32,699 nucleotides of DNA from Candidatus Eiseniibacteriota bacterium (lineage in GTDB: Bacteria > Eisenbacteria > RBG-16-71-46): contig JADLGX010000366.1 of NCBI GenBank assembly GCA_020849095.1, positions 1-32,699 of the forward strand, written 5' to 3'. Positions 21,837 to 32,635 of the stretch are shown here, piece by piece (position 1 is the first letter of the stretch; every line of letters starts with the position of its first letter). Below the pieces are notes generated by a model. It did not search any database. It had not been told where the DNA came from and saw nothing but the letters and a program-made list of their open reading frames with translations. Made by a program: the position numbers and the translations under genes.

Positions 21837-24800
21837 ATGACGTCGAAGCCCCCGCTTCTTCTTGCCGCCGCGATTGCGCTGGCGGTCCTCGTTTCCGTCC
21901 CGGGCGCCTACGCGCAGCCGGGCGCCGAGGCCCCCGTGCTCTCCGCCACCTCCACGGGCGCCGTGGGCATTCGGGAGAGTGTCTCCGACCTGGCGGCGCG
22001 CCAGGCGCAGAAGGACCTCACCCACCCGCGCATCATCCGCAACGCGGAGAAGAAGAGCGAAGGCAAGCAGAAGCGCGACCGGCGGGACCTGCCGCTGAAC
22101 CCGGAGTCGCCCCACTTCGCCGCCACCGGCGAAGGGCTGCGCGCGGTCGCTCCGCTTTCGCGCATCACCCAGCCGCTGGCCCCGCAGACGATCGGCACCA
22201 GCTTCACCGCCGCGACGCTCTCGGGCACCAACCCGACGCTGTCGTTCCCGCCCGACAACATGGGCGCCGTGGGACCGACTCAGTTCGTCACGTTCGTGAA
22301 CGGCCGCCTGGTCACGTTCAACAAGACCACCGGCGTCGCCGACGCCGTGCTCAACGTGGACCCCGACGTGTTCTTCGCCAGCGTGGTCAACGGTTCCAGC
22401 ACCAGCGATCCGCGCGTGCGCTACGACCGGCTCACCGGCCGCTGGTTCCTGCTCATCATCAATGTGTCCACGCCCAACCGCATCCTGATCGCGGTGAGTG
22501 ACGCGGCCAGCGCCGGAGTGATCTCGGGCAGCACGACCTTCACCTACTTCTTCATCAACATCGCCACCACGCCGCCGGCCATCGCGAACACCTGCTTCGC
22601 GGACTACCCGACGCTGGGCATCGACGCCAACGCGCTCTACGTGGGCACCAACAACTTCTGCGGCTCGCCCAGCCAGACCTACAACAGCACCGACGGCTAC
22701 GTGATCCGCAAGACGTCCATCCTGGGCGCGGGCCCCATCGTGCTGACCACGTTCCGCGGCCTGGTCGCCAACAGCGGGGCCGCCGGCCCCTACACGCCGC
22801 AGGGCGTGGACAACCTCGACGCGAGCGCCACCGAGGGCTACTTCATCGGCGTGGACAACCAGGCCTACGGCCTGCTCCAGATGCGCCGCGTCACCAATCC
22901 TGGCGGCACGCCGGCCATCTCGGCGAACATTCCCATCACCGTCTCGGCGACCGCCGCTCCCATCAATGTCGAGCACCAGGGCAACACCGGTGGTGCCAAC
23001 GGCCGGCTGAGCTCGCTGGACGACCGGCTGTTCGCCGCCACGATACGCGGCGGCAAGCTGTGGACCGCGCACAACATCGGGGTCAACAACACCGGCGTCT
23101 CCTCGGGCACCAGCACGCGCAACGGCTCGCGCTGGTACGAGCTCAACGTGCCGGTCGGCGGCACGCCCACCGTGGTGCAGTCCGGCACGGTGTTCACCGC
23201 CAGCGCCAGCAACGTGACGACCGAGCGCAGCTACTGGGTGCCGTCGGTGATGATTTCCGGCCAGGGCCACGCCGCCATGGCGCTGTGCGCCGCCGGAACC
23301 AACGACCGCGCCAACGCCGCCACCGTCGGCCGGCTCGCCGGCGACGCCGCGGGCACCATGCAGGCGCCCACGCTCATCACCGCCAGCTCCACGGCGTACA
23401 ACCCGCCCAGCGATCCCGGCGGCGCCGGCATCGGCCGCCGCTGGGGTGATTACACGTACACGAGCGTCGATCCGCTCGACGACATGACCATGTGGACGGT
23501 CTCGCAGTTCACCAACGCCACGAACTCGTACGGCGTGCGCGTGACCAAGCTCATCGCGCCGCCGCCCGCCACGCCCAGCGTGCTCGCCGACATCACCGCC
23601 GGCCAGGCCACGGTCAACGTCACGCTCACTGGCGCGGTGGTTTCGGGTTCGGGTTTCTTCGACCCGGGCGCCAACCTGCCGGGCGTTCCGGCGTTCAACC
23701 ACCTCTCGGCCGCCATCACCAACGGCTCGGCGACGGGCACGCCGCCCACCGTCGTGTCGGCCACCTACGTGAATCCCACCACGGTCAACCTGGTGCTCAA
23801 CGCTTCCAGCGCCACGGCGAACGTGGGCGCCGAGAAGTACACGCTCACCATCACCAACCCCGACGGCCAGGCCACTTCGGCCGCGGTGGTGCACGTGGTG
23901 GGCGGCACGCCGGTCGCGAGCATCAACAGCGTCTCGGCTACCGAGACCAACTCCGGCACCACGACGTTCGCGTTCACGGTGTCGTTGTCGCAGACCTCGG
24001 CCTCGCCGGTGTCGGTCAACTTCGCCACGTCGGACGGCACCGCCACCACCGCGGACGGCGACTACGTGGGCGCCTCGGGCACGCTGAACATTCCGGCGAA
24101 CCAGCCCTCGGGCACCATCAACGTCACGGTGAACGGCGACACCAAGCACGAGGCCGACGAGACCTTCACGGTGACGCTGTCGTCGCCGGTCGGCGTCACG
24201 CTCGGCACGGGCACGGGCACCGGCACCATCACCAACGATGACGCCGTCCCGTCGGTCACGGTGAGTGGGGTCACGGTCGCCGAGGGCAATGCCGGCGCCA
24301 CCACGGCCTCGTTCACCGTCTCGCTGTCGCAGGCGAGCGGGCTGGCCGCGAGCGTCGGCTACGCGACCGCCGACGGCAGCGCCACCGAAGCCGACGGCGA
24401 CTACACCGCCGCCGCGGGCACGGTCAACTTCGCGCCGGGCGCCACCAGCGTCACGGTGGACGTGAACGTGACCGGCGACACCAAGCACGAGGCCGATGAG
24501 GCCTTCTCGCTCATCCTGTCGAGCCCCACGGGCGCCGGGTTGGGCGTGCAGTCCTTCGCCGACGGCACTATCACCAACGACGACGCGGCGCCGACGCTGG
24601 TGCTGAGCGGATTCGTGACGGCCGAGGGCGACGCGGGTTCGCACACGGCGAACTGCGTGCTGACGCTGTCGGCCGCGAGCGGCTTGCCGGTGAGCGTGGA
24701 TTTCGCGACCGACGACAGCACCGCGACGATCGCCAATGGCGACTACGCCTCGGGAGGCGGCACCGCCACGTTCACGCCCGGCGAGACCAGCAAGAACCTG

Positions 24801-25874
24801 GGCGTGCTCGTTTACGGTGACGTCACTTTCGAGCCCACCGAGTTGCTGCTCGTGCGGCTCTCGAACGCCACGGGCGCGCTCATCCAGACGCCCTCGGCGG
24901 CCTGCGGCATCCTGAACGACGACTCCGGCCCCATCGTCACGGTCGGCGCGGGCTCGATCACCGAAGGCGACGCCGGCACGGTCGTGATGCAGTTTCCGGT
25001 CACGCTGAGCAACGGCAGCTCGCTGCCGGTGTCGTTCGACTGGGTGACGGCCGATGGCACCGCGAACGGCGGCACGGACTACGTCGCGGCGACCGGCACG
25101 CTCACCGTGGCGGCCAAGACGTTGTCCGACACGATCGAGGTCACGGTGAACGGCGACCTGTGCGACGAAGCGCACGAGACGTTCACGCTGCAGCTCTCGA
25201 ACGAGGCGGGCGGCACGCTCGCTTCGACGAGCGCCACCGGCACGATCGAGAACGACGACAACACGGTCGCCCCGACGGTGGCGGTGACGTCGCCCAACGG
25301 TGGCGAGACGCTCACCACCGGAACGAGCGCGACGCTCACCTGGACGGCGACGGACGATGTGGCCGTGGCGAACGTGAAGATCGAGTTGTCGCGCGACGGC
25401 GGCGCGACGTTCTCCGAAGTGATCGCGGCGAGCGCACCGAACACGGGCTCGTACAACTGGACCGTGACCTCGCCCGCGGTGGCGACGGCGACGGTCCGCG
25501 TGACCGCCGAGGACGTGAACTGCCACACCAGCGCGGACACGAGCGACGCGGTGTTCGCCATCCAGGACCCGACGACGGGCGTGCCCGGCGGTCCGGTGAC
25601 GGCCTTCGCGCTGGGCGCGATCGTCCCGAACCCCACGCGTGGCGCGATTCAGTTCGAGTACGCGCTGCCGCGTGACGCGCGCGTGCGCGTGAGCGTGCTC
25701 GACGTGCAGGGCCGCGAAGTTGCGGTGCTCGCGAGCGGCGTGGAGAACGCCGGCCGTCATTCGGTGCAGTGGGCCGGAGCCCGCGCCGGCGCCGCGGTGC
25801 CGCGCGGTCTGTACTTCGTCCGCTTCGAGGCGGGCGGCAAGGTGCTGAGCCGGCGCTTCACGATCATCCGGTGA
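21837..25874 (+). CDS. Large secreted protein: beta-propeller-like region, four Calx-beta domains, Ig-like domain, FlgD-like C-terminal domain
   Basis: This 1345-residue exported protein starts at ATG 21837, with GGAG 6 nt upstream and a signal peptide (PPLLLAAAIALAVLVSVPGAYA). Residues ~110-570 look like a secreted beta-propeller-type region (PPDNMGAVGPTQFVTFVNGR, RWGDYTYTSVDPLDD). A short IPT/TIG-like stretch follows (~580-690). Four Calx-beta repeats lie at ~694-802, 803-916, 917-1029 and 1030-1141, most ending in TNDD/NDD, which binds Ca2+ in known members. Next is an Ig-like PNGGETLTTGTSATLTW domain (~1150-1250). The last ~85 residues are a FlgD-like/type-A sorting-like domain (PNPTRGAIQFEYALPRD ... 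VLDVQGREV ... GLYFVRFEAGG). It is probably a calcium-stabilised surface or secreted protein exported through a T9SS-like or comparable route; the route is inference. Confidence 0.88.
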   Translation: MTSKPPLLLAAAIALAVLVSVPGAYAQPGAEAPVLSATSTGAVGIRESVSDLAARQAQKDLTHPRIIRNAEKKSEGKQKRDRRDLPLNPESPHFAATGEGLRAVAPLSRITQPLAPQTIGTSFTAATLSGTNPTLSFPPDNMGAVGPTQFVTFVNGRLVTFNKTTGVADAVLNVDPDVFFASVVNGSSTSDPRVRYDRLTGRWFLLIINVSTPNRILIAVSDAASAGVISGSTTFTYFFINIATTPPAIANTCFADYPTLGIDANALYVGTNNFCGSPSQTYNSTDGYVIRKTSILGAGPIVLTTFRGLVANSGAAGPYTPQGVDNLDASATEGYFIGVDNQAYGLLQMRRVTNPGGTPAISANIPITVSATAAPINVEHQGNTGGANGRLSSLDDRLFAATIRGGKLWTAHNIGVNNTGVSSGTSTRNGSRWYELNVPVGGTPTVVQSGTVFTASASNVTTERSYWVPSVMISGQGHAAMALCAAGTNDRANAATVGRLAGDAAGTMQAPTLITASSTAYNPPSDPGGAGIGRRWGDYTYTSVDPLDDMTMWTVSQFTNATNSYGVRVTKLIAPPPATPSVLADITAGQATVNVTLTGAVVSGSGFFDPGANLPGVPAFNHLSAAITNGSATGTPPTVVSATYVNPTTVNLVLNASSATANVGAEKYTLTITNPDGQATSAAVVHVVGGTPVASINSVSATETNSGTTTFAFTVSLSQTSASPVSVNFATSDGTATTADGDYVGASGTLNIPANQPSGTINVTVNGDTKHEADETFTVTLSSPVGVTLGTGTGTGTITNDDAVPSVTVSGVTVAEGNAGATTASFTVSLSQASGLAASVGYATADGSATEADGDYTAAAGTVNFAPGATSVTVDVNVTGDTKHEADEAFSLILSSPTGAGLGVQSFADGTITNDDAAPTLVLSGFVTAEGDAGSHTANCVLTLSAASGLPVSVDFATDDSTATIANGDYASGGGTATFTPGETSKNLGVLVYGDVTFEPTELLLVRLSNATGALIQTPSAACGILNDDSGPIVTVGAGSITEGDAGTVVMQFPVTLSNGSSLPVSFDWVTADGTANGGTDYVAATGTLTVAAKTLSDTIEVTVNGDLCDEAHETFTLQLSNEAGGTLASTSATGTIENDDNTVAPTVAVTSPNGGETLTTGTSATLTWTATDDVAVANVKIELSRDGGATFSEVIAASAPNTGSYNWTVTSPAVATATVRVTAEDVNCHTSADTSDAVFAIQDPTTGVPGGPVTAFALGAIVPNPTRGAIQFEYALPRDARVRVSVLDVQGREVAVLASGVENAGRHSVQWAGARAGAAVPRGLYFVRFEAGGKVLSRRFTIIR
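23916..25260 (+). repeat. Four in-frame Calx-beta repeats
   Basis: Four units of roughly 330-345 bp occur in tandem. Repeats 1 and 2 still share near-identical DNA around GGCGACACCAAGCACGAGGC (24136 and 24475), whereas units 3 and 4 have diverged. This indicates duplication at different times. Confidence 0.8.
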
Positions 25875-26071: not shown

Positions 26072-28180
26072 ATGTCGAGCACGATCTACCGCTATGATGG
26101 CGCTGAGTTCTTGAGCAATACACCTGAGGCCGATCCGGCCTCAGGCGCCTTTGTGATTCCGTATCGCAGGAGTGCCGTGGTGTCGCAGTGGACCGAGCTG
26201 CTCGAACAGGAGACGGTCGAAGTGCCCGTGACAGACGCCGGTGATGTTGTGGCGGGCGACCTGCTTCGAATCTGGGGAAGGGATTACCCCGACTACCAGC
26301 TCAGTGTGGTCTCGGTGAATGCGTCACGCACCGTGCTCACGATCCAGAACTACGGTGCCCACGTGGGGCTCGCATCCGGTGAGCTGCTGCTGCCGCCGAC
26401 GGATCCGCCCGTGCTCTATCGGGACGCAAATCTGAGCCACCCCTATGGTCAGGTTCTGCCGCGAACGGATAACGCAGGTCGCTGGGATTTCTACGCCGCA
26501 GTCCCGGCGTTGGATCTGGTCATTGGCGGTGGCGGGCTCTCGGCCGAGCTCCTTCAGCACGATCGTTCGGGCTTTCGGGTCGTTCGTGCGTCGTCCACGC
26601 GCGACGCTCGCGACTACGCCTCCATCCAAGCCGCCATCGACGCGCTGCCACCAGAGGGCGGAACGGTGTTCATCCCGGCCGGAATCTGGTATCTGACGCA
26701 GACTCTGTACACGCCGTGTGATCGCCCCTGCCACCTGCTCGGCGAGGGCTCGAATCACGAGGGCGACAAGGGTACGGTGCTGGTGTGGACGACGAACACT
26801 GGGATGCTGAGGCTGCGAGGGAACGACTCGACTGCGCGCAAGATCGTGCTGAGGAATGACTCCACGGGTGAGTCGAGTGCGGAGCACGAGGGCTATGGAG
26901 TCTCGATCGGGCGTCGCAATCGCACGGACGAGCACCCTCATCCCGGCACGAGTGCGACGCAGACCGAGTACGAGAAGGGTGGTTTCCTGCCACTGCGCTC
27001 GGTCGTCCTCGAGGACCTGACGATCAAGAATGCGCCCGGCTGGGGCTTGAGCATTCCCGGGCACGGGCACCAGTCCGACGGCAGCACGGAAGAGCTCTAC
27101 GCGTCTGCTCCGAGCGGCCAGCACGGCGGCACGCTCTCGTTCTGGGTGACGGTGAATCGGGTCAGGATCATCGAGTCGCGAAAGTTCGGCGGGATCTTCA
27201 CCGGGCTCGGATGCACGACGGTGTTCTTCTCGGAGGGCGCATCGCTCGCGCATGGTGTCGGGCAGTCAAACGCCCCGGCCTACTACGCCTACATCCGCGG
27301 CGTCACCCATCCGTCTTTTCACAAGTGGACGTTCGAAGGGACGAGTCCGGAGGGGAATGCAGACGGAACGAGCCGGCCATGGGTGAAGTTCGTCGGCTGT
27401 GAAGCCGTCGTGCTGGATACGGTGTATTTCGAGAACGACATGCATATTTCGGATCTGGAGCCCGCCCCGGGGGCGTCCTACCACGCCCAGTACTTCCTCG
27501 CGTTCTCACAGCGCAATCGTGCAGTGTCGGTGCGCAACATGTTCTTCGCGCGACATGGTGTGTCGAGCGGCAAGCTCAGGTGTATCTACTGTGAGAAGGA
27601 TGGCGTGCGGGGACTGCACATCGAACAGCCTTGCGCAATGTCGAGTACGGCACTTTCGGCACAGATCGGTGGCCAGTGGACTCCCCACGACCGTGAAGCG
27701 ATCGTGCTCAATGCGGACGGGACCGCCACCCACGACAACGAGCACATCGTTCTGGCTGGCGCGGGAGTCGCGCGAGACGCCACGCAGTCCGACGGTGGGG
27801 TGTTGGAGTTCCCACCCCTCACTCACGCCAAGATCCCGCTGACGACGCACGTCCTCGGAACACGCGGTTTGACCGTGCCGCGCTCCACGCCTGCAACTCG
27901 CACGGCAAACGTTCTCGACAATCAGGCCATGCTCACTCGCGAAGGCGCGATCGTCGTGGAGGCGTTGACTTCGGACGCATCCGGCCCACACGGACTGGTC
28001 TATTCGACGGGGCCGGACTCGGGTTGGCGACACATCGGGAACGTTCCCACCCTGACCGAAACACAGCGTGGCCAGTGGTCGGGTTGGCAGCAGGGCGACA
28101 TGGTGATCGACCCTTCCGTTCCGAAGCTCCTCATGTACGTCGAGGGCCAGTGGCAGACCGTCAAAGTGTTCCCGTACTGA
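26072..28180 (+). CDS. Pectate-lyase-like right-handed beta-helix protein, tail-spike-like
   Basis: This 702-residue protein is read from ATG 26072 (GAGG 5 nt upstream). An alternative ATG at 25988 would add 28 residues beginning with a Gly run coded by nine consecutive G. There is no signal peptide. Residues ~170-240 carry the pectate-lyase-superfamily opening (ARDYASIQAAIDALPPEGGTVFIPAGIWYL), followed by irregular beta-helix rungs (VVLEDLTIKNAPGWGLSIPG, NRVRIIESRKFGGIFTGLGC, VVLDTVYFENDMHIS). The end (QQGDMVIDPSVPKLLMYVEGQWQTV) resembles the C-terminal cap of phage tail-spike and similar surface proteins. Local GC is clearly lower than upstream, and codon choice is less biased, which suggests acquisition by transfer. 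No phage genes surround it. A polysaccharide-binding or -cleaving role is plausible. It is followed after 26 nt by the next gene. Confidence 0.7.
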   Translation: MSSTIYRYDGAEFLSNTPEADPASGAFVIPYRRSAVVSQWTELLEQETVEVPVTDAGDVVAGDLLRIWGRDYPDYQLSVVSVNASRTVLTIQNYGAHVGLASGELLLPPTDPPVLYRDANLSHPYGQVLPRTDNAGRWDFYAAVPALDLVIGGGGLSAELLQHDRSGFRVVRASSTRDARDYASIQAAIDALPPEGGTVFIPAGIWYLTQTLYTPCDRPCHLLGEGSNHEGDKGTVLVWTTNTGMLRLRGNDSTARKIVLRNDSTGESSAEHEGYGVSIGRRNRTDEHPHPGTSATQTEYEKGGFLPLRSVVLEDLTIKNAPGWGLSIPGHGHQSDGSTEELYASAPSGQHGGTLSFWVTVNRVRIIESRKFGGIFTGLGCTTVFFSEGASLAHGVGQSNAPAYYAYIRGVTHPSFHKWTFEGTSPEGNADGTSRPWVKFVGCEAVVLDTVYFENDMHISDLEPAPGASYHAQYFLAFSQRNRAVSVRNMFFARHGVSSGKLRCIYCEKDGVRGLHIEQPCAMSSTALSAQIGGQWTPHDREAIVLNADGTATHDNEHIVLAGAGVARDATQSDGGVLEFPPLTHAKIPLTTHVLGTRGLTVPRSTPATRTANVLDNQAMLTREGAIVVEALTSDASGPHGLVYSTGPDSGWRHIGNVPTLTETQRGQWSGWQQGDMVIDPSVPKLLMYVEGQWQTVKVFPY

Positions 28181-28206
28181 CAGAGCGCTTCCCCAGGAGC
28201 CACTGC

Positions 28207-30201
28207 ATGATCTCGCGTCTTGCCTGCCCGTCGACACTCCTGCTCCTTGCCGTCGCGCTGATTGCGGTCTCGCGCGTGCGAGAGGCATCCGCTGCCTGGC
28301 CGGCGCAGGCGAGTGTGGGCGGAGTGGTCGTCTGCGACACCACAGGCGACCAGGAGGAGTTTCGCATTCTCTCGGATGGCGTGGGCGGCGTTTACTGCCT
28401 TTGGGCAGATGTTCGAACCGGATTCGGAGAGGTCCGCCTGAAGCGATTCAATGCTTCGGGCCTGGCCGCAGGTTGGCCGGAACAGGGCTTGCGGATCGCG
28501 GACAGAACGATTGGCGCCTCTGTGCTGACACTTGCACCCAATGGTGCGGGAATGATCGTCGCGACTTGGTGGTCGTCGCCTGACTCCAAGGTCAAGTCGC
28601 AGTGCTTCGACTCGACCGGTGCCGCGTTCTGGACGCCTGGCGGCGCGATCCTCGCCAATCATTTCATCGACCTCTACAATGGCGTGGCGGTGTCTCCCGA
28701 CGGCAGCAGGGTCTATGCGGGCGTCACCGGGACGGCCAATGGGCCGACGATCGCAGCGATTCGTCAGCGTCCAGATGGTTCGCTCGCATGGCCCGCCCCG
28801 ATCGGGTTGCGCGAGTCCTTCCAGCCCGTCTACGAGCCCGTGATCTGCGCCATCACCGACAGTACGGTTGCGATCACATGGCGAGACGACCGAACGGGTG
28901 CTCCCGGTATCTACGGTCAGAGTCTCGACCGGAATGGCAATATCCTCTGGGGCGATGGCGGCAAGCGCCTCATGCCGACACCTGCCACCGAGGGAAGGCT
29001 GTCGCCAAATGGCCTCGGCGGGCTGAGCGGTTGCTACCTCTCTCTCGTGGATGATCCGACTTTCGGCGACTTCCGCCTGTTCAATGTGGATGCGAACGGC
29101 GACACCCTGCGGCACTGGCCTTCTGGCGGCCTGCCCTACATCACGGAACCCAACCAGAACCCGGGTGGATTGCCTGCGGTGACCTTTACCGACATCCCGG
29201 GCGAAGTCCTGCTCGGCTGGCGGGACACCTACGACACCCCGAACGGCATCTTCCGCGTCCAACGTTTCGACACGACTGCGACACCCTTGTGGCCCGGCCG
29301 CGGGCGGATCGCTTATCAGGCGACGTCGCCCACGGGCGACACGCACGGTTGGCCCGACGGAAAGGGCGGCTTCTGCGTCAGCGTGCTCGGCAAGTCGCCG
29401 GGCTACGACGTGTTCGGGCAGTATGTGCGGCCCGACGGTTCGGCGAAATGGCTGACACCCTTCGTACCGGTCTGCACTGCGGCAGGCGTACAGGATCGCG
29501 GCACCTATACGGCGCAACTCGTGACTCCCGATTCCTCCGGCGGCGCCTTCTACTGCTGGGTGGACTATCGCAACGCCTCGACGGCTTCCGACCTCTACAT
29601 CCAGCACGTGAACGCCGACGGCACTCTCGGTGGAGTCGTCACTGCTACCGAGGCGTCGGCCGTCTCTGCGACCTTCCTCGAAGGCTGCGCGGAGGTGCGG
29701 TGGCACGCGTCGGTGGACCCCGGCGTTTCGTTCACCTTGCAGCGCCAGCCCGAGGACGGCGAGTGGGTCGCCATCGGCGTGCCTGCCGACGAGGGCGAGG
29801 ATCTCTGGGCGGCGCGTGACTGCGCTGTCGAACGAGGCGCGCGCTACGCCTATCGGCTCGAATGGTCGCAGGACGGCGAACTTCGGCACTCGGCCGCCAT
29901 CTCGCTCGCGATCCCGCTTCAGCCGCAGTTCGCCTTCTCCTCGCCGTGGCCGAATCCAGTGCGCGACCGGATGTCGTTCGACTACTCGCTGTCGCGTTCG
30001 GGTGCGGTGCGCGTGAGCCTGCTGGACCTCTCGGGGCGCGAGGTGTCGCTGATCGAGTCGGGTGTTCGCGATGCCGGCGAACATCGCGTCACATGGCGAG
30101 CCGGCGGCCGCGGTGGTGGAGTGCTGCGGCCGGGCTGCTACTGGGTCCAGCTGGAGGCCGAGGGCCAGAAGCGTTCGCGGCAGATCGTCGTCGTGAAATA
30201 G
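28207..30201 (+). CDS. Secreted beta-propeller-like protein with FlgD-like C-terminal domain
   Basis: This 664-residue exported protein starts at ATG 28207 (AGGAG 7 nt upstream) with signal peptide LACPSTLLLLAVALIAVSRV. The body contains WD/BNR-like repeated strands with 'G..W' endings: GGVYCLWADVRTGFGEVRLKRF, STVAITWRDDRTGAPGIYGQ, GEVLLGWRDTYDTPNGIFRVQ and GGAFYCWVDYRNASTASDLYIQ. This suggests a propeller of four or more visible blades. A fibronectin-III-like stretch (ATFLEGCAEVRWHASVDPGVSFTLQR) precedes a C-terminal domain PNPVRDRMSFDYSL ... LLDLSGREVSL ... GCYWVQLEAEG. That domain is homologous in pattern to the end of the Calx-beta protein. The gene sits 26 nt after the beta-helix gene and shares its lower GC in the first two thirds. 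The role is probably extracellular; the ligand is unknown. Confidence 0.8.
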   Translation: MISRLACPSTLLLLAVALIAVSRVREASAAWPAQASVGGVVVCDTTGDQEEFRILSDGVGGVYCLWADVRTGFGEVRLKRFNASGLAAGWPEQGLRIADRTIGASVLTLAPNGAGMIVATWWSSPDSKVKSQCFDSTGAAFWTPGGAILANHFIDLYNGVAVSPDGSRVYAGVTGTANGPTIAAIRQRPDGSLAWPAPIGLRESFQPVYEPVICAITDSTVAITWRDDRTGAPGIYGQSLDRNGNILWGDGGKRLMPTPATEGRLSPNGLGGLSGCYLSLVDDPTFGDFRLFNVDANGDTLRHWPSGGLPYITEPNQNPGGLPAVTFTDIPGEVLLGWRDTYDTPNGIFRVQRFDTTATPLWPGRGRIAYQATSPTGDTHGWPDGKGGFCVSVLGKSPGYDVFGQYVRPDGSAKWLTPFVPVCTAAGVQDRGTYTAQLVTPDSSGGAFYCWVDYRNASTASDLYIQHVNADGTLGGVVTATEASAVSATFLEGCAEVRWHASVDPGVSFTLQRQPEDGEWVAIGVPADEGEDLWAARDCAVERGARYAYRLEWSQDGELRHSAAISLAIPLQPQFAFSSPWPNPVRDRMSFDYSLSRSGAVRVSLLDLSGREVSLIESGVRDAGEHRVTWRAGGRGGGVLRPGCYWVQLEAEGQKRSRQIVVVK

Positions 30202-30296: not shown

Positions 30297-31166
30297 ATGA
30301 CTCTCCTCACGCTCGCGCTCGTGCTGGCTTCGGCTGTGATTCACGCCAGCTGGAACCTGTGGGCCAAGCAGATCGGCGCCACCGCCCGGCAGGCGGCGCT
30401 CATGTGGCTGCTCACGGGCATCTCGAGCTTGGCGTACGCGCCGCTGGCCGTGTGGCTGTACCTGCACGGCGACTGGCGGCCCTCGCCGCTGGCGCTCGGC
30501 GTCACCATGGCGAGCGGCGCGGTGCATATCGTGTACTTCCTGCTGCTGCTGCGCGGCTATCGCGTGGGCGACCTGTCGCTCGTCTATCCCGTCGCGCGTG
30601 GCACCGGACCGCTGCTGGCGTTCGGCGGAGCGCTCGCGCTGTTCGGGGAGGCGCTCACGCCGGCGGCGCTGGCCGGAGCGCTGCTCATCGCGCTCGGCGT
30701 GCTGGTGCTGACGGCTGGCGCGCCCATCGCCGATCGCAGCAAGCTGGCGCCGGGCCTGCGCTACGGGCTCGCGACCGGAGTGCTGATCGCCACCTACACG
30801 CTGTGGGACGGCTGGGCGGTGAAGGGCGCGCACATTCCGCCGCTGCTCTTCTACTGGGGCGGCGAGGTGACGCGCGTGCTGCTGTTCACGCCCGCGGCCA
30901 TGGGACAGCGTGACGAGATCGCGCGGCTGTGGCGCGACGAACGCCCGCGCGTGCTGGGCATCGCGCTGCTCTCGCCGCTCAGCTACATCCTGATCCTGCT
31001 CGCCATGAGCACGGGCGCCGTCAGCCGCATCGCGCCCGCGCGTGAGGTGGGCATCCTGGTGGGCGCGTACCTGGGTGGCCGCGTGCTGGGCGAGGGGCAG
31101 CGCCGGCGGCGGCTGTTCGCCGCGGCCGCGTTTGCGGCCGGCGTGATCGCGCTGGCGGTGGGGTAG
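30297..31166 (+). CDS. EamA/DMT-family transporter
   Basis: This 289-residue inner-membrane protein is of the drug/metabolite transporter superfamily, with about ten membrane helices in two EamA repeats. Visible marks are HASWNLWAKQIG in helix 1, SLVYPVARGTGPLLAFGGALALFGEALTPAALAG at the end of repeat 1, and YTLWDGWAVKGAH plus APAREVGILVGAYLGG in repeat 2. The substrate is unknown; family members export amino acids, metabolites or drugs. ATG 30297 has no Shine-Dalgarno sequence. TACCGT ends 8 nt upstream, suggesting a leaderless message. The last codons (GVIALAVG, stop) are repeated exactly 940 bp downstream. The gene is convergent with the LamG-like gene, with only 15 bp between stops. Confidence 0.9.
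   Translation: MTLLTLALVLASAVIHASWNLWAKQIGATARQAALMWLLTGISSLAYAPLAVWLYLHGDWRPSPLALGVTMASGAVHIVYFLLLLRGYRVGDLSLVYPVARGTGPLLAFGGALALFGEALTPAALAGALLIALGVLVLTAGAPIADRSKLAPGLRYGLATGVLIATYTLWDGWAVKGAHIPPLLFYWGGEVTRVLLFTPAAMGQRDEIARLWRDERPRVLGIALLSPLSYILILLAMSTGAVSRIAPAREVGILVGAYLGGRVLGEGQRRRRLFAAAAFAAGVIALAVG
31139..31166 (+). repeat. 28-bp direct repeat, copy A
   Basis: This is the final 28 nt of the EamA gene including its TAG. It is identical to 32081-32108 and in the same orientation. Confidence 0.9.
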
Positions 31167-31181
31167 CAGCCCCCGCGGTGG

Positions 31182-31898
31182 TCACCGGAAGAGCGACTTG
31201 ATCCGGCCCCAGGTGGACGGCTTCGCGCCGGTCGAGGCCCCCTGCAGGAACCGGTACTGCGTGATCTCGGCGTGTGCGTTGGACGCGCCGGTGCCGTCGC
31301 CCAGCGTGAGCCGGTTGGCCACCTGGCCAAAACCGGCGCTGTTCGTCGAGATGAGAGTGCCGTCCACGTAGTAGCGAACGGACGATGGCGGCGTCCACTC
31401 GAGCCGGTAGTCGTGGAACTGCGTGTTGTCGTAGGCGCTCGACAGGATGACGCCGTTGACGTTGCGGATCTGGGTGGGCGAGATGCCCATCATGTAGTAC
31501 GTCGCGCCCTGTGCGAACCCGAACGAGAACCCACCCCCGACGAAGCTGTTCGTGAAGTCCCCCTCGAACTGGATCACGCGGCCGCGCATGGTGATCACGA
31601 TGGGTTCGAAGTTGTTGACCACGCCGGTGTGCGTGTAGAGCGCCGAGGTGCCGGCGCCCGTGAATCCGAAGGCCATCGAGTTGAGCGTCAGCACGCCGCT
31701 GCCCAGCGAAAACGTCTGCGCCTCGGTTGCGACGGGCGAGCCTCCGCTCACGAAGGTCCAACCCTGGGCCGATGGCAGCGAGCCGAAGTCGAGCGCGATG
31801 TCGGTGGCGAGCGCGGCGGCGGGCCAGAGGACGAGCAGCAGCGTTGCGGCGGCGGCGAACGCCGCCGACGAACGGCGGAGGGCGGGATTCGAGGACAT
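31182..31898 (-). CDS. Exported LamG/concanavalin-like protein
   Basis: This 238-residue protein starts at ATG 31898 with a weak GAAGG upstream. The signal peptide (SSAAFAAAATLLLVLWPAAALA) is followed by a beta-rich domain: TDIALDFGSLPSAQGWTFVSGG, FEPIVITMRGRVIQFEGDF, FHDYRLEWTPPSSVRYYVDG and NRLTLGDGTG. The FHDYRLEW...VRYYVDG pattern is that of LamG/laminin-G or GH16-like jelly-roll domains, where it forms the central strands. No catalytic E-x-D-x-E motif is visible, so it is more likely a binding protein. The chain ends PSTWGRIKSLFR, an odd Trp/basic tail that could be a sorting or anchoring signal. It sits between two copies of a 28-bp repeat, which suggests that it was inserted here. Confidence 0.8.
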   Translation of the reverse strand: MSSNPALRRSSAAFAAAATLLLVLWPAAALATDIALDFGSLPSAQGWTFVSGGSPVATEAQTFSLGSGVLTLNSMAFGFTGAGTSALYTHTGVVNNFEPIVITMRGRVIQFEGDFTNSFVGGGFSFGFAQGATYYMMGISPTQIRNVNGVILSSAYDNTQFHDYRLEWTPPSSVRYYVDGTLISTNSAGFGQVANRLTLGDGTGASNAHAEITQYRFLQGASTGAKPSTWGRIKSLFR

Positions 31899-32060
31899 GG
31901 TTCACGGCCTTCGGATGAGAGGTGGCGGCGCACCTCGGCCGCGGACGAACCCGCGAGCCGGGTGCGCAATTCTCGCCAGCCGGTTCGATCCGTCGCAAGG
32001 GGAAAATCGGGGCGAAGGCCCTGCCCTGTGAGCGAGAATGGAGTCGCGGCCGCTCTCATT

Positions 32061-32108
32061 GCCCGGGGTACGGGACCACTCGGCGTGATCGCGCTGGCGG
32101 TGGGGTAG
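32061..32108 (+). pseudogene. Remnant resembling an EamA gene fragment
   Basis: In one frame this reads ARGTGPL then GVIALAVG and stop. ARGTGPL also occurs in the intact EamA protein about 180 residues before its C-terminal GVIALAVG. In the ARGTGPL part nearly every third codon base differs from the intact gene, whereas the last 28 nt are identical. An internally deleted relic with a recently converted tail would explain it. The match is short and chance cannot be excluded for the first part. Confidence 0.35.
32081..32108 (+). repeat. 28-bp direct repeat, copy B
   Basis: Exact copy of 31139-31166. It ends 11 nt before the acetyltransferase ATG and contributes the TAG of a possible TAGGAT -10 hexamer. 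Confidence 0.9.
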
Positions 32109-32119
32109 GATTCCCGCCC

Positions 32120-32635
32120 ATGACCATCCAACGCCTGACCCCGGCCCACGCGAGCGCCTACCGTTCGCTCATGCTCGAGGCCTACGACACGCGGCCTGTG
32201 GCATTCGGCACCACGTCGCACGAGGCGGCCGGGTTCCCCATGTCGTGGTGGGAGACGCGCACCCACGACGCGCCCGACTCCACCTGCCTCGTCATGGGCG
32301 TGCTCGACGGCGACGCGCTCATGGGCGCCGCCGGCCTGCTGTTCGAGGCCCGCGAGCGCGCCTGCCACCGCGCCACGCTGTTCGGCATGTACCTGCGCCC
32401 CGTGCTGCGCGGCGCCGGGCTGGGGCGCATGCTGGTCACGGCCACGCTCGACGCCGCGCGTTCGCGGCCCGGAGTGCGCGTGGTGCAGCTGTCGGCCATC
32501 GAAGGCAACGAAGGCGCGCTCCGGCTGTACGAGAAGTGCGGGTTCGTGCGCTACGGGCTGGAGCCCATGTGCTTTTCGTCCGACGGCGGCTGGCTGTCGC
32601 GTGTCCACATGTGGCGCGAACTGGAGGCGCGATGA
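32120..32635 (+). CDS. GNAT-family N-acetyltransferase
   Basis: This 171-residue acetyl-CoA-dependent acyltransferase has motif A visible as LFGMYLRPVLRGAGLGRMLV, where RGAGLG is the R/Q-x-x-G-x-G/A pyrophosphate loop. Motif B is VVQLSAIEGNEGALRLYEKCGFVRYG. The N-terminal IQRLTPAHASAYRSLMLEAYDTRPVAFGTT is typical of the branch that acetylates small amines or amino acids; the substrate is unknown. ATG 32120 lacks a Shine-Dalgarno sequence. TAGGAT ends 8 nt before it, so the message may be leaderless. The longer track ORF upstream is not used. Its stop overlaps the ATG of the next gene. Confidence 0.88.
   Translation: MTIQRLTPAHASAYRSLMLEAYDTRPVAFGTTSHEAAGFPMSWWETRTHDAPDSTCLVMGVLDGDALMGAAGLLFEARERACHRATLFGMYLRPVLRGAGLGRMLVTATLDAARSRPGVRVVQLSAIEGNEGALRLYEKCGFVRYGLEPMCFSSDGGWLSRVHMWRELEAR

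Follow-up and report, generated by a model that had tools for sequence, protein, structure and literature searches.

An exact 28-bp direct repeat around a LamG-like gene, most likely the scar of a one-gene insertion in a Candidatus Eiseniibacteriota genome

A repeat pair at the end of an EamA gene

In the window analyzed here, a 32,699-nt stretch of DNA from a Candidatus Eiseniibacteriota bacterium, the last 28 nt of an EamA-family transporter gene recur ahead of a GNAT acetyltransferase gene, and a LamG-like gene lies between the two copies. We interpret this repeat as a real, non-random recombination scar, ordinary in kind and most likely left by the insertion of one gene between EamA and GNAT, with a 28-bp EamA stub remaining on the GNAT side; we consider such an insertion probable, if far from assured. 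The locus would then offer a clean case of an uncultured bacterium gaining one gene between two others, neither of them damaged, with the scar still legible; taken alone, the insertion changes little.

The EamA gene occupies positions 30297–31166 on the plus strand (Pfam PF00892 EamA, E 2.6e-8), and its final 28 nt, CGGCGTGATCGCGCTGGCGGTGGGGTAG, constitute copy 1 of the repeat (31139–31166, plus strand), coding for GVIALAVG and the stop. Copy 2 (32081–32108, plus strand) matches it at 28 of 28 positions, at a start-to-start distance of 942 bp, and is non-coding; it stands in front of the GNAT gene (32120–32635, plus strand; Pfam PF00583, E 8e-16), whose ATG at 32120 begins 11 bp after the copy ends. 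These 11 bp form the spacer GATTCCCGCCC (32109–32119, plus strand), which together with the TAG of the repeat gives TAGGA, judged from its letters a possible ribosome-binding site. The segment between the copies (914 bp, 31167–32080) comprises 15 bp, the gene for a LamG/ConA-like secreted protein (31182–31898, minus strand) and a 182-bp region upstream of that gene. The original prediction had described this layout—the terminal 28 nt of EamA, stop included, recurring before GNAT, with the LamG-like gene on the opposite strand in between—and both the exact match and the gene order were confirmed.

Similarity drops to background immediately on either side of both copies, and beyond the 28 bp the repeat search gives just a loose 35-bp extension at 91%. 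The right border of the repeat coincides exactly with the EamA stop codon, while the left border has no comparable landmark. Since EamA in congeners likewise ends in GVIALA(V/L), copy 1 is native to the gene; as it belongs to the EamA coding sequence whereas the other copy is non-coding, copy 2 is the derived or left-over one. No notable DNA folding was found at the repeats, and a promoter and terminator scan of the locus returned nothing. Just 5′ of copy 2, at window positions 32060–32080, the peptide ARGTGPL can be read in the frame of GVIALAVG, and the same peptide occurs inside EamA. A remnant of a second EamA gene ahead of copy 2 was nevertheless set aside, and the resemblance treated as coincidence: the codons are nearly all different, and peptide sharing of the scored length was seen in 2 of 660 comparable windows.

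A chance origin, or convergence through base composition, is barely credible. The region has a G+C content of 70%, and the EamA end of the nearest relative (G001) has 27 of the 28 bases alike, both of which would favor such an origin. Against it, copy 2 lies outside any gene, and when the window was simulated 40 times with a third-order Markov model, the longest exact repeats measured 15–20 bp, compared with the 28 bp observed. Moreover, exactly these two sites of the 28-mer exist in the 4.48-Mb assembly when up to three mismatches are allowed, with no further one. The simulations and the whole-genome search together led us to reject chance; the earlier claim that such a match exceeds chance thus held against a simulated maximum of 20 bp, and the search for the 28-mer elsewhere that it had proposed found no third site.

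The locus in related genomes

For comparison, we used the five genomes of the genus (the source genome, G000, and four congeners, G001–G004) and 47 genomes of the phylum. All four congeners carry EamA orthologs, at 60–84% amino acid identity, and in none of them does the LamG-like gene stand at the EamA 3′ position. That position is instead taken by a metallopeptidase gene in G001, a TetR gene in G002, a CheW-like gene in G003 and an enoyl-CoA hydratase gene in G004. Because each congener has a different gene there, the EamA 3′ flank (loci L037, L042, L043 and L044) looks like a gene-turnover spot. When the window is aligned with G001, EamA identity reaches the stop codon and then ceases. The agreement of the G001 EamA end with the repeat at 27 of 28 bases is no more than chance would give when identity is 81% (P about 0.4), so that an attempt to date the event from the identity of the two copies was dropped.

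Among the congeners, a homolog of the GNAT gene (60%) is present downstream of EamA in G001 only, about 2.7 kb away and with the metallopeptidase gene in between; no such GNAT follows EamA in G002, G003 or G004. The LamG-like gene was found in 4 of the 47 phylum genomes, the source genome included, and its homologs lie at other loci in G004 (65%), G001 (41%) and G008 (40%), with a further one in G071. Its absence from this site in the congeners, combined with homologs at unrelated loci, marks the segment as lineage-specific at this place. Neither an empty site, in which GNAT directly follows EamA, nor a donor, in which the LamG-like gene follows EamA, was detected in the 47 phylum genomes. Of what the original prediction had proposed, an insertion of roughly 0.9 kb with duplication of the junction therefore still fits best, given that the four congeners have no LamG-like gene at this position. 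Its premise that the two genes were formerly adjacent fared less well: direct EamA–GNAT adjacency was not seen, and in G001 the metallopeptidase gene intervenes. The comparison of this junction in relatives, which it had suggested, gave the arrangement without the LamG-like gene in all four congeners but no empty site.

Origin of the repeat

We infer that EamA and GNAT were originally adjacent and that the event was anchored within EamA, and we also infer its direction. In the ancestor, EamA would have been followed by GNAT 11 bp further on, and the empty-site junction expected from this is EamA-TAG-GATTCCCGCCCATG. A one-gene segment, made up of the LamG-like gene and its own upstream region, would then have entered at the EamA end, with the GNAT-side joint falling 28 bp short of where EamA used to end. 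The outcome would be a complete EamA end before the insert and a 28-bp EamA stub before GNAT. The most economical route to this may be homology-facilitated illegitimate recombination (HFIR), in which incoming DNA carrying the end of an EamA homolog followed by the LamG-like gene would have recombined within the resident EamA, its other end being closed by an illegitimate joint. For this anchored route in particular our confidence is tentative, and clearly lower than for an insertion as such.

Several observations count in favor of an insertion. The 11-bp spacing between an EamA stop and the GNAT start is operon-like, comparable to the 12 bp that separate the EamA stop from the next gene in G003; in G001, too, GNAT is found downstream of EamA; and the gene 3′ of EamA varies in every congener. 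The right border of the repeat falls at the stop codon, where identity with relatives ceases, which fits guidance of one side by EamA homology, and since both neighboring genes are intact, an insertion could persist. Counted against it are the lack of both empty site and donor in the 47 genomes, the metallopeptidase gene that splits EamA and GNAT in G001, and a sampling of the genus that comprises just five genomes.

Alternatively, the order EamA–LamG–GNAT could be the older one, and repair or replication could have placed a copy of the last 28 bp of EamA ahead of GNAT. One short templated insertion would give an exact copy with no gene moved, and copy 2 indeed stands outside any gene context. 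Such a patch would, however, leave the absence of the LamG-like gene at this site in the congeners unexplained, and would make it accidental that the repeat border meets the stop codon and that GNAT starts at an operon-like distance of 11 bp; we regard it as unlikely.

A second enclosed gene in the same genome

About 582 kb of sampled contigs from the source genome, including some 32 kb of masked sequence, were surveyed for exact direct repeats of at least 24 bp at a spacing of 100–6000 bp, counting only repeats that stand alone, outside longer paralogous repeats. A 31-bp repeat at locus L154 was left out, since its flanks are 48% identical and the repeat looks coding. Two isolated repeats were recovered: the 28-bp pair of the window and an exact 38-bp pair on contig C10 (locus L064, 12515–12552 and 13869–13906). 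The latter encloses one SLFN/AlbA_2 gene, with a GNAT gene on one side and a CCA-type nucleotidyltransferase gene on the other, and has the same anatomy as the window's 28-bp case. Neither AlbA_2 nor GNAT occurs within 1.5 kb of the two nearest homologs of the nucleotidyltransferase gene (in G001 and G003). In 800 kb of G001 and G002 no isolated repeat of such size was found, a contrast with the source genome that is not significant, as both events would fall in its share of the sample with a probability of about 0.18.

We consider it very unlikely that a recurrent process, duplicating some 28–38 bp of target, adds single genes in this lineage and that the window and C10 are two examples of it. 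Under such a process both neighboring genes would keep functional ends, and if C10 does reflect the same process as the window, the genome could be used to study the entry of single genes without mobile elements.

The lengths of 28 and 38 bp, ten apart, also give reason for caution over a mis-join of strains. An assembly artifact would have merged two strains, one with EamA–LamG and one with EamA–GNAT, into a single contig, the overlap between graph pieces being left behind as the repeat. The assembly is in 629 contigs, the window ends 591 bp past copy 2, and the two isolated repeat lengths resemble a ladder of word sizes with a step of 10; to our knowledge, though, 28 and 38 fit exactly no common default list of word sizes. 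In addition, contig ends overlap by 127 bp, which implies a final assembly word far longer than the 28-bp repeat, and a mis-join would require reads that support the joining of the segment's right end to the 28-mer. These points make an artifact quite unlikely.

Comparison with known systems

HFIR has been reported from S. pneumoniae, A. baylyi and P. stutzeri, and rarely from E. coli; it usually pairs an insertion with a deletion and shows 3–10 bp of microhomology at the illegitimate joint (PMC3240628). The locus resembles it in that HFIR produces insertions of about 1 kb, anchored in homology on one side, for which no mobile-element enzyme is necessary. As for the features by which HFIR can be recognized, the segment is missing from the site in relatives (the four congeners) and its border coincides with the EamA end, where an anchor would lie, while the 47 genomes contain no EamA–LamG donor. 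Of the HFIR picture, it is the anatomy alone that fits.

A long target-site duplication, produced either by fill-in of a 28-nt staggered break or by a site-specific recombinase with the 3′ end of EamA as its target (and the copies as attL and attR), would generate the same anatomy: an exact direct repeat around a one-gene segment, with the gene 3′ end restored. That a second one-gene segment of the genome is flanked on both sides by an exact 38-bp repeat speaks for it as well. Integrative elements that target gene 3′ ends are similar, in that the repeat corresponds to a gene 3′ end with its stop and the gene stays intact. They differ from this locus in that it has no integrase, no integrase-type site structure and no other copy, and holds one gene only; no recombinase gene is present in the 914-bp segment, which contains just the LamG-like gene. 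Transposons likewise leave exact direct repeats on either side of an inserted segment, although the usual duplications are shorter than 28 bp. No terminal inverted repeats were seen on inspection at the segment ends, and no transposase is present among the open reading frames. There is also no second copy of the 914-bp segment in the genome, apart from a 27-bp coding match, and no plasmid match to it; a multi-copy mobile element was rejected on these grounds. The C10 repeat differs from that of the window in both length and sequence, which speaks against a single enzyme with a fixed site or a fixed duplication length. Given these observations, a target-site duplication appears fairly unlikely, and we continue to favor the one-gene insertion that left an EamA stub.

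XerCD dif-like (pdif) modules and integron cassettes are similar in being one-gene modules between short sites, and dif sites are likewise 28 bp long. The inverted arms of the 11-6-11 dif arrangement are absent from the repeat: with CGGTGGGGTAG reverse-complemented, a count by eye finds agreement with CGGCGTGATCG at 5 of the 11 positions. The GTTRRRY core of attC sites was also not discerned by eye, as the repeat contains no GTT and the segment's right end shows no such core. A search of the literature on short-patch recombination found nothing useful.

The LamG-like protein and its C-terminal tag

The LamG-like protein, which resembles sugar-binding proteins, matches GH16 exactly at the Pfam cut-off, and its matches to Laminin_G_3 and to β-glucanases in the PDB are weak; a single-sequence structure model had a mean pLDDT of 34 and was useless for the fold. 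Its translation has a hydrophobic segment at the N-terminus and lacks an intact GH16 catalytic ExDxxE motif, the nearest stretch being EGDFTN. From these two features of the translation, a secreted binding or structural protein appears more likely than a glycosidase.

The protein ends in STWGRIKSLFR, an instance of the tag WG.[ILV]K.L[YF]R-stop (window 31182–31220, minus strand), which terminates many otherwise unrelated, secreted-looking proteins; its carriers span two phyla. We searched genomes at the DNA level for WG..K.L[YF]R with a stop-like codon (TRR) directly after it, using the reversed pattern as a control. The pattern has 15 matches in the source genome, 9–21 in the congeners and at least one in each genome of the family, and occurs in most genomes of the phylum (G000–G046); within the class, too, most genomes have it, though some do not. 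Genomes from other phyla gave no match in 51 of 52 cases, the exception being G071, through which a second phylum was reached with the pattern in 50 of 58 sampled genomes. The reversed control had no match in any genome. Within the genus, 78 motif matches carry a stop-like codon, as against 1 with a codon not starting with T, and an N-terminal hydrophobic segment is present in 31 of 34 complete carriers versus 11% of control open reading frames. Preferences extend outside the pattern: S/T is favored ahead of WG, and so is a T-P-T/A/V stretch near positions −16 to −14. No NCBIfam or Pfam model covered the tag in the 10 carriers tested, and a search of the literature on it turned up nothing useful. 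We take the tag for a putative signal for sorting or processing.

Two further features of the window concern other coding regions. At 28117–30201 (plus strand), a large secreted-type protein is encoded whose C-terminus carries a FlgD-like/T9SS-type sorting domain, near threshold; because of this domain, two different C-terminal signals may be in use in the source genome. At 24015–25199, three copies of a 168-nt repeat, 61–71% alike, lie within a long open frame and probably represent repeated protein domains.

A covarying hairpin element

The C-terminal tag and a hairpin element encountered in this genus may matter more than the insertion, and both merit separate study. The element, which is not present in the window and had no match in Rfam, is about 140 nt long, with arms of 23–29 nt and a conserved core. 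Copies are located in the source genome (L081 295–435, L093 3926–4066 and L102 4823–4962), in G001 (L194 4300–4440) and in G002 (L213 9538–9685). The arms are complementary inside each copy and different from copy to copy, and an alignment of the five sequences revealed compensatory changes in 23 of the 48 predicted pairs.
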